Below are positions 6,230 to 53,312 of a stretch of DNA of 64,000 nucleotides, in pieces. This DNA comes from Pseudomonadota bacterium. GTDB taxonomy: Bacteria; Pseudomonadota; Gammaproteobacteria; Xanthomonadales; Xanthomonadaceae. Under the pieces are notes generated by a model. It worked only from the letters and a program-made list of their open reading frames with translations, did not search any database and was not told where the DNA came from. Each line of letters opens with the position of its first letter. Positions within the stretch are counted from its first letter, which is position 1. The translations under genes were made by a program, and so were the position numbers. Location: contig JAKACT010000002.1 of the NCBI GenBank assembly GCA_021821195.1, positions 1 to 64,000 of the forward strand, in the 5' to 3' direction.

Positions 6230-6967
6230 ATGAACGGCAAACTGGAAGGCAGGATCGCCCTGGTCACCGGCGGCGCGCGCGGCATCGGTGCCGCCATCGT
6301 CCGCCGGCTGCATGCCGACGGTGCCCGCGTTGCCATCACCGACGTGCTGGACGACGCCGGCCGCGCGCTGGCGGCGGAGCTGGGCGACCGCGCCGCGTAT
6401 TTCCACCACGACGTCGGCGACGAAGCCGCGTGGGTGGACACGCTGGCCGCAGTGACTGCGCGCTTCGGCGCCCTGCACGTGCTGGTCAACAACGCCGGCA
6501 TCTTCCATCCCGGCCAGATCGCCGACGCCGCGGTCCGTGACGTCGAGCAGCAGTTTCGGGTCAACCAGCTGGGCCCCTTCCTCGGCATGAAGCACGGCCA
6601 GGTGCCGCTGCGCGCGGCCGGCGGCGGCTGCATCGTCAACATCAGCTCGATCGCCGGCCAGCTCGGCTTCCCCAATGCCGCCGCCTACGTGGGCACCAAG
6701 TGGGCGGTGCGCGGGATGACCAAGACCGCCGCGCTGGAACTGGCGCCGGCGCAGATCCGGGTGAACTCGGTGCATCCGGGCTTCATCGACACGCCGATGC
6801 TCGACAACAACCCGCCCGAAGCCAATCAGGCCGGCATCGAAGCCACGCCGCTCAAGCGCATCGGCAAGCCCGAGGAAATCGCTGCCGCGGTGGCGTTCCT
6901 GGCCGGCCCGGACGCCGGCTTTGTCACCGGCGCGGAGCTGACCGTGGACGGCGGCTGGATTCTTTAA
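6230..6967 (+). CDS. Short-chain dehydrogenase/reductase (classical SDR)
   Basis: The protein has 245 residues, the classical SDR length. The cofactor motif TGGARGIG is at residues 13-20, NNAG at 87-90, the catalytic Ser in NISS (137-140), and YVGTK at 153-157 supplies Tyr and Lys. The C terminus GAELTVDGGWIL is the standard SDR ending. An acidic residue after strand 2 (TDV, Asp38) suggests preference for NAD+. It resembles 3-alpha/20-beta-hydroxysteroid or glucose dehydrogenases, but substrate cannot be inferred. The ATG follows a purine-rich GGAGAGG. The stop is followed by a palindromic repeat at 7001-7071 that may act as its transcription end. Confidence 0.9.
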   Translation: MNGKLEGRIALVTGGARGIGAAIVRRLHADGARVAITDVLDDAGRALAAELGDRAAYFHHDVGDEAAWVDTLAAVTARFGALHVLVNNAGIFHPGQIADAAVRDVEQQFRVNQLGPFLGMKHGQVPLRAAGGGCIVNISSIAGQLGFPNAAAYVGTKWAVRGMTKTAALELAPAQIRVNSVHPGFIDTPMLDNNPPEANQAGIEATPLKRIGKPEEIAAAVAFLAGPDAGFVTGAELTVDGGWIL

Positions 6968-7000
6968 CGCAATCCAGCGAAGCGACACAGGCTGGAGGTC

Positions 7001-7071
7001 GGCCGGGCAACGCCGGCCTCGCAACCAAGCGAGTATCGGGGAGCGACTTGCGAGGCCGGCGTTGCCCGGCC
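7001..7071. repeat. Palindromic element with conserved 23-nt loop (copy 1)
   Basis: The arms at 7001-7024 and 7048-7071 are perfect 24-bp inverted repeats (GGCCGGGCAACGCCGGCC followed by TCGCAA). The 23-nt spacer at 7025-7047 contains GCGAGTATCGGGGAG. This spacer is identical, in reverse complement, to the loop of the element at 14437-14459, whose arms are entirely different. It lies in the 147-bp gap between the convergent SDR gene and oleB and could stop transcription from either side. The surrounding bases 6968-7000 and 7072-7114 hold no other feature I can name. Confidence 0.9.
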
Positions 7072-7114
7072 GGCCCTCACAACACATCCAGCGTTCTATG
7101 AAACCCGCGAGGAA

Positions 7115-8017
7115 CTACAGCGGATTGCGATCCAGGAACGCCCGGATCAGCGGCACCAGCACTTCGTGCTTGTCCTCCAGCGCGTAGTGGCCGGCATCGG
7201 CATAGGCATGCACTTCCGCGTTCGGCAGCGCGTTGCGGAAGCCGTCGAGGAAGTGCTTGTCGAACACGAAATCGCGCAGGCCCCAACCGATGAACGCCGG
7301 CCGGTCCGCATAGCCGGGCAGTGCCTTTGCGCTGGCCTGCACCAGCGGCATGGCGCGGTCGCCGTCGTGCAGCGGGATGTCCTGCATGAAGCGCAGGGTG
7401 GAGATCGCCTTGTCCCAGCCGTCGTACACGCCGGCATAGGCCGCGCGCACGTCCTTCGGCAGCGAACGCCGGGTGCCCATCCACGCTGCGCCGCGCGCGA
7501 ACAGGTTGAAGCGGCGGATCAGCCAGCCACCCAGGCGCGAATCGCGCCCCATCGCCAGCCGCGCCGGGAATCGCTTGGCCGATGGCAGCGGGAACGCGGC
7601 GGTGTTGGTGATGACCAGGCGCTTGATCCGCGCGGGATCGCGCAGCGCCCAACCGAAACCGATCATCCCACCCCAGTCGTGCACCGCCAGCGTCACCGGG
7701 CCGTCGATGCCGAGGTGCTTGAGCAGCGCCTCCACGTCGTCGATGCGCGACTGCAGCGTGTAGTCGTAGCGCGGCTGCGCGGACGGGCCATCGCCAGGGC
7801 GATCGCTCAGGCCCATGCCGACGTGGTCCGGCACGATGCAGCGGTACCTGTCGCGCAAGCCCAGCACCAGGTGCCGCCAGTAATAGCTCCACGACGGGTT
7901 GCCGTGCAGCATCACGATCACCTCGCCATCGCGCGGGCCTTCGTCGAGGAAGGACATGGCGATGCCAGGGCGGACTTCGAAACGTTGCGGGGTGAACGGA
8001 TAGTCGGGGAAGCGCAT
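7115..8017 (-). CDS. oleB: OleB, beta-lactone decarboxylase (alpha/beta hydrolase)
   Basis: The protein has 300 residues and is of the haloalkane-dehalogenase type. LHGNPSWSYYWR (about 38-49) gives the oxyanion-hole HGNP motif. HDWGG (113-117) holds the nucleophile Asp114, and the catalytic His is in AGHY (His277). OleB removes CO2 from the cis-beta-lactone made by OleC to yield the cis-olefin, the last step of the pathway. It lies 27 bp after a methyltransferase gene on the same strand, with oleA farther upstream. Xanthomonas OleB is the characterised model. A plain haloalkane dehalogenase is the alternative, disfavoured by context. Confidence 0.92.
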   Translation of the reverse strand: MRFPDYPFTPQRFEVRPGIAMSFLDEGPRDGEVIVMLHGNPSWSYYWRHLVLGLRDRYRCIVPDHVGMGLSDRPGDGPSAQPRYDYTLQSRIDDVEALLKHLGIDGPVTLAVHDWGGMIGFGWALRDPARIKRLVITNTAAFPLPSAKRFPARLAMGRDSRLGGWLIRRFNLFARGAAWMGTRRSLPKDVRAAYAGVYDGWDKAISTLRFMQDIPLHDGDRAMPLVQASAKALPGYADRPAFIGWGLRDFVFDKHFLDGFRNALPNAEVHAYADAGHYALEDKHEVLVPLIRAFLDRNPL

Positions 8018-13867: not shown

Positions 13868-14806
13868 ATGCGCCGCACCGTCCTCGTCACCGGCGCCAAC
13901 CGCGGCATCGGGCTGGCGTTCGCGGGCCAACTGCTGGCGCGCGGCGACCATGTCATCGCCACCTGCCGCCACCCCGGCAAGGCCGCTGCGCTGAACGCGC
14001 TGGGCGGCGAGCATCCCGGTCGCCTGCACGTGCTGCCGCTGGACGTGGCCAGCGAAAAATCCCGCGCCGAGCTGATCCGCGAACTGCCGCTGGTGCTGGG
14101 CGAGGACGGAAGGCTGGACCTGCTGATCAACAACGCCGGCGTGCTGCATTCGGGCGAACGCTTCGGCCAGCTGCGGCAGGAGACGCTGGAAGACAGCCTG
14201 CGCATCAACGCCATCGGCCCGCTGCTGCTGGCGCAGGCGGTGGCGCCGTTGCTGCGGGATGGCAACCGCGCTGCCGGCGGCAACGAGGGTGTCGCGGGCA
14301 CGGGCGCCACCGGAGCCGTGATCAACCAAGCGAATCACGTGGAGTGCAAACGCGACAGCGTTTGCGTTGATCGCTTGCCCGGCGGCGCCCGTGCTGCGGA
14401 TATCACGAGCAGCGGCGGCGCTAGGGGCGCAATCAAGTCGCTCCCCGATACTCGCTTGGTTGATTGCGCCCCTAGCGCCGCCGCTGCCTCCGGTTGTCCC
14501 GTCATCGCCAACCTCAGCTCGCAACTCGGCTCCATCGCCGGCGTGACCCGCTTCGGCGCGCCCAGCTACGCCATCAGCAAGGCCGCGCAGAACATGGCCA
14601 GCGCGCAGCTGGCGCAGGCGCTGGCCGCGCGCGGCATCGTGGTGCTGTCGCTACACCCGGGCTGGGTGCAGACCGACATGGGCGGCGAGAAGGCGCCCGA
14701 TGCGCCGGCCGACGTGGTCGCCGGCATGCTGCGGCTGATCGACGCCGCCACGCCCGCGCAGTCCGGCGGCTTCTTCGACTGGCGCGGCGAAGCGTTGCCG
14801 TGGTGA
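13868..14806 (+). CDS. SDR-family oxidoreductase carrying an in-frame palindromic insertion
   Basis: The protein has 312 residues, about 75-80 more than its class. TGANRGIG is at 8-15, NNAG at 88-91, Ser in NLSSQLGS (215-222) and YAISK at 234-238, so both halves of the catalytic machinery are present. Residues from about 132 to 211 do not look like SDR sequence and match exactly the repeat-rich DNA at about 14261-14498. Without them the protein would be about 235 residues. The insert falls just before the strand that leads to the catalytic Ser, where a loop could bulge outward. Whether the enzyme is active is unknown. Related proteins are C-factor-like carbonyl reductases. Confidence 0.82.
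   Translation: MRRTVLVTGANRGIGLAFAGQLLARGDHVIATCRHPGKAAALNALGGEHPGRLHVLPLDVASEKSRAELIRELPLVLGEDGRLDLLINNAGVLHSGERFGQLRQETLEDSLRINAIGPLLLAQAVAPLLRDGNRAAGGNEGVAGTGATGAVINQANHVECKRDSVCVDRLPGGARAADITSSGGARGAIKSLPDTRLVDCAPSAAAASGCPVIANLSSQLGSIAGVTRFGAPSYAISKAAQNMASAQLAQALAARGIVVLSLHPGWVQTDMGGEKAPDAPADVVAGMLRLIDAATPAQSGGFFDWRGEALPW
14298..14393. repeat. Degenerate palindromic element inside the SDR gene
   Basis: Imperfect 28-bp arms (starting GCACGGGCGCC at about 14298, ending GGCGCCCGTGC at about 14393) flank a 41-nt centre. That centre begins CCAAGCGA like the loop of the two perfect elements and contains its own hairpin GCAAACGC-GACA-GCGTTTGC. It looks like an older, decayed or variant member of the same family, in tandem with the perfect copy that follows. 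Confidence 0.6.
14411..14485. repeat. Palindromic element with conserved 23-nt loop (copy 2, inside a gene)
   Basis: Perfect 26-bp arms at 14411-14436 and 14460-14485 (left arm begins AGCGGCGGCGCTAGGGGCGC) flank a 23-nt loop at 14437-14459 containing CTCCCCGATACTCGC. The loop is the exact reverse complement of that at 7025-7047, while the arms share nothing beyond a few bases next to the loop (CAA on the left, TTG on the right). The frame of the host SDR gene stays open through the element. Confidence 0.9.
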
Positions 14807-53184: not shown

Positions 53185-53312
53185 AAAAAAGCCCCGCAGC
53201 CAGGGGGGACTGCGGGGCCGGGGAAGGCCGGTTGGGGAGGACCTGCACCTTCCGGTTGATCACACCAGGGGAGGGGTAGTGATCGGCAACAGGCGTTGCA
53301 CCTGTTGCGAGC
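53185..53312 (-). ncRNA. sX13-like small RNA
   Basis: On the minus strand a transcript of about 120 nt would start near 53312 and end at a strong terminator. In order, hairpins are GCAACAGG/CCTGTTGC (53286-53308) and GATCAC/GTGATC (53258-53284), whose loop contains TACCCCTCCCCTGG. Next is GGAAGG/CCTTCC (53222-53253), with CCTCCCC in its interior, and last the terminator GCCCCGCAG/CTGCGGGGC (53191-53218) with C-rich loop and TTTTTT. Three C-rich loops, the length and the place between polA and a membrane-protein gene fit the Xanthomonas sX13 RNA, known to act on G-rich mRNA leaders. TATAGC near 53314-53319 may be the -10 box. Confidence 0.75.

Follow-up and report, generated by a model that had tools for sequence, protein, structure and literature searches.

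The window analysed here is the whole stretch of 64 kb at the beginning of a contig from a Thermomonas (Lysobacteraceae) genome of 2.92 Mb. It contains two long hairpins, one between two convergent genes and the other within an open reading frame. The features at both sites are listed below; for the parts of the hairpins the strand is the one that carries the loop.

6230..6967, + strand: SDR-family oxidoreductase gene, its stop codon about 30 bp to the left of element 1
7000..7024, + strand: element 1, left arm, 25 bp perfect (28 with one T.G, starting at 6997)
7025..7047, + strand: element 1, loop of 23 nt, CCAAGCGAGTATCGGGGAGCGAC, 13 copies genome-wide
7048..7072, + strand: element 1, right arm
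7115..8017, - strand: gene for a haloalkane-dehalogenase-like alpha/beta hydrolase (matches below curated cut-offs), convergent with the SDR gene
13868..14806, + strand: second SDR gene, 312 aa, open through element 2 and a degenerate copy of a second hairpin family
14297..14405, + strand: degenerate hairpin region of the second loop family (CCAAGCGAATCACGTGGAG at 14326-14344), adjoining element 2 in the same SDR gene
14409..14436, - strand: element 2, arm 3' of the loop on the loop strand, 28 bp, perfect
14437..14459, - strand: element 2, loop, the identical 23 nt
14460..14487, - strand: element 2, arm 5' of the loop on the loop strand

A previous sequence-only reading of this DNA had described two elements sharing one 23-nt loop in opposite orientation, and this is what was observed, with the identical loop on the + strand in element 1 and on the - strand in element 2. 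The stems are perfect as that reading had stated, but they have 25 and 28 pairs and not 24 and 26; the arms of element 1 can be extended to 6997-7024/7048-7075, which gives 28 pairs with one T.G (96%). That the stems are of different sequence is true for most of their length, where they are unrelated, but not for the closing CAA/TTG. Since these three innermost pairs are common to both elements, the shared sequence is 29 nt and not 23. The folding energy of element 1 is 10 SD below that of shuffled sequences as RNA and 8.8 SD below as DNA, and the RNA fold pairs two GC steps within the loop. In the window alone, the 15-mer proposed as a probe gave five matches with up to three mismatches as compared to 2.5 expected, so only the two exact matches count there.

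In the second SDR gene the SDR match is broken between about residues 132 and 208. The loop of the degenerate hairpin at 14297-14405 itself holds a further small hairpin. A search of the window against Rfam 15 gave no match at the element at gathering score and elsewhere only tRNA and sX13, a Xanthomonadaceae sRNA (53185-53297, - strand, 61.8 bits). Ten loci searched up to E 1 gave only microRNA matches at the element, far below gathering score, which we take to reflect long hairpins. The other copies in this genome lie beside genes for proteins of the LpxA, IF-3, uroporphyrinogen decarboxylase, Mur ligase, chorismate-binding, TatD, ferritin and class II aldolase types, that is, ordinary housekeeping genes in which we can see no common theme.

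The hairpin family is real and stronger than the sequence-only reading had stated. That reading had proposed a genome-wide search for further copies, and a 25-mer of the loop gave 13 matches in the whole genome (11 exact, one with one mismatch and one with two) against none for the reversed control. The arms of these 13 copies are near-perfect, 24-30 bp long and differ from locus to locus. Copies are present in 20 of 25 Thermomonas genomes, the source genome included. Across the family, a 17-mer allowing one mismatch detected the loop in 25 of 296 genomes and 9 of 54 genera, a count to be read with the fact that 8 of the 296 genomes match the reversed control too; the carrying genomes have 1 to 16 copies each. 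Across the class, an exact 18-mer was found in one of 369 genomes, namely the source genome (control 0). The genome_contigs scan returned at least 108 stretches with the loop; among the matches listed, carriers with names are largely Thermomonas, Luteimonas and Lysobacter, and the others are Zeimonas and other Burkholderiaceae and several MAGs. The phages and viral contigs searched gave no loop match, and plasmids nothing but a 19-nt match of E 0.4 in two Sinorhizobium plasmids. As far as titles and the openings of abstracts tell, the loop has no published description; the sole literature match to its letters, in an E. coli assay paper, was taken as a primer coincidence. RepRanger, with the defaults given in an excerpt of its description (loop up to 11 nt, palindrome up to 32 nt), would miss such elements.

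Pairing in the stems was examined in 21 Thermomonas loci that align without gaps over 24 stem pairs (504 cells); L029 is probably the ortholog of L002, hence 20 independent loci. It was found that 97.6% of the cells hold a standard pair versus 56.3% in shuffles, that both sides change at 23 of the 24 stem pairs and that 185 cells are two-sided changes. None of 500 shuffles was as high, whichever measure was taken, and pairing fell to 33-45% when the partner was slid by one to three columns. An unbiased count was made on the first 20 pairs of 68 genus elements that have an exact loop and were not selected on their arms. The 1360 pairs comprise 1281 Watson-Crick, 39 G.T, 6 A.C and 34 others; when arms were swapped among the 68 elements, the mean was 639 Watson-Crick pairs and the maximum 705 in 200 shuffles. 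Our data show a nearly invariant loop and a stem whose sequence is largely free provided that pairing holds. Some constraint remains in the stem, since G is preferred at pair ten counted from the loop (17 of 20 loci), the strongest preference within the arms. Outside the arms no position of the 20 loci exceeds 0.54 bits and no base is strongly conserved, thus there is no promoter or foot motif common to the loci. Two loop positions covary, being A..C in 171 and G..A in 15 of 189 elements, as would be expected of a folded loop.

The expectation that arms are complementary and variable holds in Thermomonas; the variability does not extend to Luteimonas, SG8_30 and some other MAGs, where the arms are conserved among the copies of one genome. 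A lack of further copies, or conserved stems, would have told against the sequence-only reading, and neither is the case within Thermomonas. In some copies, for example L017 and L205, the arms have decayed and the loop is retained. At the site in G011 orthologous to L011 (L417/L205) the right arm is broken near a G run with the loop intact, possibly by fresh decay or a sequencing error.

The mismatches in the arms are strongly asymmetric between the strands. They were collected from 189 elements, of which 80 come from the genus, 24 from the family and 85 from the genome_contigs set ('gtdb'); the sets were de-duplicated by sequence context, and the last therefore includes some Thermomonas. Poor arms with a score under 12 (3 of 83, 4 of 28 and 17 of 102) and copies no more than 64 nt from the end of a locus were left out, and imperfect loops (up to two mismatches of 17) were admitted only with pairing arms. 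On the loop strand the ratio of G.T to A.C mismatches is 172:30, with arm ends set by best score, the 68-element exact-loop set being the unbiased count. By set it is 79:7 in the 80 genus, 18:3 in the 24 family and 75:20 in the 85 genome_contigs elements, the excess being weaker in this last, mixed set. Non-arm flank positions, taken from 40 genus elements, show the opposite bias (63:148). A fold of the opposite strand would show G.T as A.C, so it is only the fold of the loop strand that is tolerant. The ratio is 24:1 in elements antisense to both neighbouring genes and 15:2 in those sense to both, and in the genus set the G.T mismatches are divided 17:17 between left and right arm. By comparison with the nearest ortholog in the three sets, the mismatches arose by C>T in 41 cases, A>G in 21, G>A in 9 and T>C in 3; the other arm mismatches are about 16 transversions and a few double changes. 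One-sided changes are thus filtered for loop-strand G.T equally in both arms, which indicates that pairing is selected. As the excess is equal in antisense elements and in both arms, it is the loop-strand hairpin that is selected, and not by way of the neighbours' mRNA. The possibility that the right arm is an error-prone copy of the left was rejected because mismatches are equal in both. Our results show that selection acts on the loop-bearing strand to form a hairpin, mostly of 23-31 bp, and that the orientation of the element relative to genes is immaterial.

The placement of the elements agrees with this. In the genus, the neighbouring 3' end is no more than 40 bp away for 12 of 16 sense-tandem and for 20 of 28 antisense-tandem elements; both genes are sense in 16 cases and antisense in 28 (p 0.10). 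Since placement near gene 3' ends occurs in either orientation, the neighbouring mRNAs are not what is selected, and a hairpin of the mRNA 3'-UTR was ruled out by orientation together with the G.T excess in antisense elements. Sixteen of the 80 genus elements were called inside a gene by a simple GC-frame caller, whose 'inside' calls are unreliable.

Copies at orthologous sites are held across species, with the arms changed and the loop sometimes inverted. Among ortholog pairs matched by both flanks, loop orientation is the same in 133 and opposite in 86, and 8 of 16 multi-member ortholog groups contain both orientations; two of these eight include a pair of neighbouring elements, and matching of the wrong neighbour may account for some of the flips. 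At the element-1 locus the loop is on the + strand in G000 and G003 and on the - strand in G022, G006 and G021, with related arms; G019 has a decayed copy, and G009 and G016 have none. The orthologous site in G011 (L296) carries a different long palindrome, GTAGGAGCGCACC..., which judged by eye looks like a GTAG-type REP. The element-2 site carries a copy in 6 of 20 genomes compared, with four kinds of arm and three copies in each orientation, and the reading frame is open in all six carrying species. A close relative, G020, has no element at this site, and a deletion between short GCGCC repeats fits that equally well. No clean empty site was found, the loci other than the element-2 site being too diverged to compare. 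If the element were purely selfish, one would not expect pairing to be maintained at old loci; this argues for a role in the host.

The sequence-only reading had left two possibilities, that pairing itself is selected or that the arms are copied by a process that makes inverted repeats. The data favour both, in different roles. Selection is seen in the filtering of one-sided changes, alike in both arms. For copying the evidence is weaker. In 26 ortholog pairs the two-sided Watson-Crick changes comprise 30 transitions and 28 transversions, and the flanks in the same comparison have 387 and 450 substitutions, respectively. Transversions should be depleted if change proceeded stepwise through G.T, and many of the double changes may therefore be due to copying between arms; with 28 of 58 two-sided changes against 450 of 837 in the flanks, transversions are not depleted (Fisher p 0.50). 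This, together with the loops inverted at orthologous sites, points to arm-to-arm copying. Two-sided changes do not cluster in neighbouring pairs (7 observed, 7.0 expected), hence such copying is suggestive only, and multi-base footprints of template switching are not demonstrated. According to the excerpted text of PMC8794818, template switching makes stems, repairs stems and inverts loops.

The family is not limited to one loop. A second loop, ATCACGTGG, is present in three exact copies in this genome, each with its own near-perfect stem, and both loops, GTATCGGGG and ATCACGTGG, are built on one AAGCGA...AGCGAC frame. In the scan for the second loop only the 16 exact matches were used, matches with two mismatches being at control level. 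In L005 (about 1560-1611), beside the uroporphyrinogen decarboxylase gene, the right arm is repeated together with a decayed second loop (CCACGCGAGCATCGGGAAGCGGC) directly after the intact element; this arrangement is not intact in the five orthologs compared. Lineage variants exist as well. Luteimonas and Lysobacter have inverted doublets about 166-190 bp apart, in Luteimonas with a spacer common to the copies, and in both the stems are conserved within subfamilies, like those of ordinary REPs. In several MAG loci (L076, L077, L094, L120, L141, L148 and similar ones) the stem is interrupted about 15 pairs away from the loop by a recurring internal loop, GGA/GCAA, and blocks of the arms are conserved in those lineages.

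The elements resemble REP, BIME and REPIN repeats with their RAYT/TnpA-REP in being dispersed hairpins mostly just past stop codons, in forming inverted doublets in Luteimonas and Lysobacter, in that an in-frame copy inside a gene is tolerated and in that one of the strands is apparently read in folded, single-stranded form. By extragenic placement and inverted doublets they would pass as REPs. They could thus be conventional GTAG-type REP/BIME elements, moved by a Y1/RAYT transposase and unusually diverged; the accessible parts of two papers report frame-keeping REP inserts (PMC6006769) and that in S. maltophilia and Marinomonas a REP can be recognised by its loop and perfect stem (PMC8266576), and 18 of 25 Thermomonas genomes have Y1_Tnp. 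We consider this explanation improbable. In Thermomonas the loop is constant and the stem variable, with arms particular to each locus, a stem mostly of 23-31 bp and a 23-nt loop, whereas a REP has a short conserved stem, and these sizes fall outside the GTAG ranges in the excerpted table of PMC3733652 (stem 5-13, loop 2-20). No GTAG/CGTC foot was seen in 20 loci. The presence of Y1_Tnp does not track the element: the gene is absent from five element-carrying Thermomonas genomes (three of them 78-86% complete) and from 7 of 18 element-bearing genomes examined, including Zeimonas arvi, and present in three Thermomonas genomes without the first loop. A linked transposase or RAYT gene had been proposed as a thing to look for, and the search for a linked Y1 transposase found none, nor did a reader protein emerge from the analysis; near 15 Y1 (RAYT-type) genes there is no loop, the best loop-like match having 6-8 mismatches of 21. 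The RAYT/Y1 link was ruled out on this gene distribution and the lack of loops near Y1 genes. Copy numbers of 1 to 16 per genome, independence of Y1 and orthologous retention with covarying stems are also unlike REPs. The judgement that this is no ordinary REP therefore stands, having neither the GTAG foot nor the Y1 link, and we file the element among dispersed palindromic repeats as something REP-like in which loop and stem have swapped roles, and not as a REP member.

A strand-specific folded hairpin with a free stem sequence is also a property of integron attC sites. These keep their R and L ends and not the tip; the ends R''/R' read RYYYAAC and GTTRRRY, and the sites sit in cassette arrays. 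Integron integrases over the curated cut-off occur in 22 of 25 Thermomonas genomes and in none of 14 control genomes (carriers include L433, L434 and L435), and attC recombines as a folded bottom strand without sequence conservation, according to the excerpt of PMC2727003. Even so, it is very improbable that the element is an attC-like substrate of a tyrosine recombinase. The attC-like sites found in three of five integron regions, belonging to two Thermomonas genomes, are canonical and unrelated, with another hairpin tip; the loop core is in none of the five regions, and all five Thermomonas genomes without the first loop have an integrase. On these grounds an integron attC was rejected. The attC-like arrays were seen in G003 and G011.

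Hairpins made by template switching (Monttinen and Loytynoja 2022, PMC8794818), as far as the accessible text describes them, share with the present elements perfect arms, two-sided changes and inverted loops, and differ in that here the loop is long and near-invariant and the mismatches are strand-asymmetric. It could be argued on this basis that folding is not selected at all, the inverted repeats being kept by template switching, which can create and repair stems and invert loops (as excerpted from the same paper), and the loop being conserved for another reason, such as a duplex-binding site. The transversions among two-sided changes, which are near the flank level, and the flipping loops would fit. 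But G.T should then equal A.C, and the observed 172:30 strongly disfavours this; mismatches equal in both arms are likewise not what copying error into one arm would leave. We regard this explanation as unlikely. The covariation and the excess of G.T over A.C on one strand are the marks of a single-strand hairpin under selection.

Such a strand could be RNA. Covariation, G.U-tolerant pairing and a conserved, near-invariant loop are classic signs of a structured RNA, and the loop strand may be transcribed from non-conserved promoters or by read-through, with a protein or RNA partner binding the 23-nt loop. The GC steps that pair inside the loop in the RNA fold and the recurring internal loop of the MAG lineages would agree with this, and GT pairs in REP stems have been taken as a hint of transcription in the accessible part of PMC3733652. 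This reading is possible, though rather doubtful. Unlike structured RNA motifs, the elements have no fixed orientation and no common promoter or terminator: they lie both sense and antisense to their neighbours with a G.T excess as strong in the latter, loops flip at orthologous sites, and 20 loci have no promoter-like or other flank motif in common. TTTT occurs within 12 nt past the right arm in 1 of 80 elements and AAAA before the left arm in 0 of 80; an intrinsic terminator was ruled out by this missing T run after the stem. Nor is there an Rfam match at gathering score at the element.

The explanation that we prefer, to which we give about an even chance, is a dispersed REP-like hairpin whose identity lies in the 23-nt apical loop with CAA/TTG, combining strand-selected folding, a putative factor that reads the loop, template switching and past spread. 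A trans-acting factor would recognise the folded single strand through its loop, and the recognised form is somewhat likelier to be single-stranded DNA, exposed at replication or in a cruciform, than RNA. Template switching on the hairpin during replication would often transfer a mutation from one arm to the other, and the same process could also flip the loop; we read the arms as being kept matched by selection plus template switching. At some earlier time the copies may have spread in the form of hairpins or inverted doublets, and within genes they probably persisted only where they were in frame. A more specific version is tentative: the elements may form a loop-defined class in which a putative protein reads the folded loop strand as single-stranded DNA or cruciform, the stem being free text kept complementary by selection and self-templated copying, with at least two loop specificities. 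The 23 nt of the loop would then carry nearly all of the information that lies in the sequence. The two loops built on one frame suggest paired, diverging loop readers.

Repeats are normally recognised by a conserved sequence. Here it is the loop and the pairing on one strand that are conserved, and almost everything else is free. The family thus offers a test case for two questions: by what means long perfect stems originate and persist, and what bacteria do with single strands that fold. With so many orthologous copies among related species, selection can be separated from template switching, and the near-invariant loop could serve directly as bait for the putative reader molecule.
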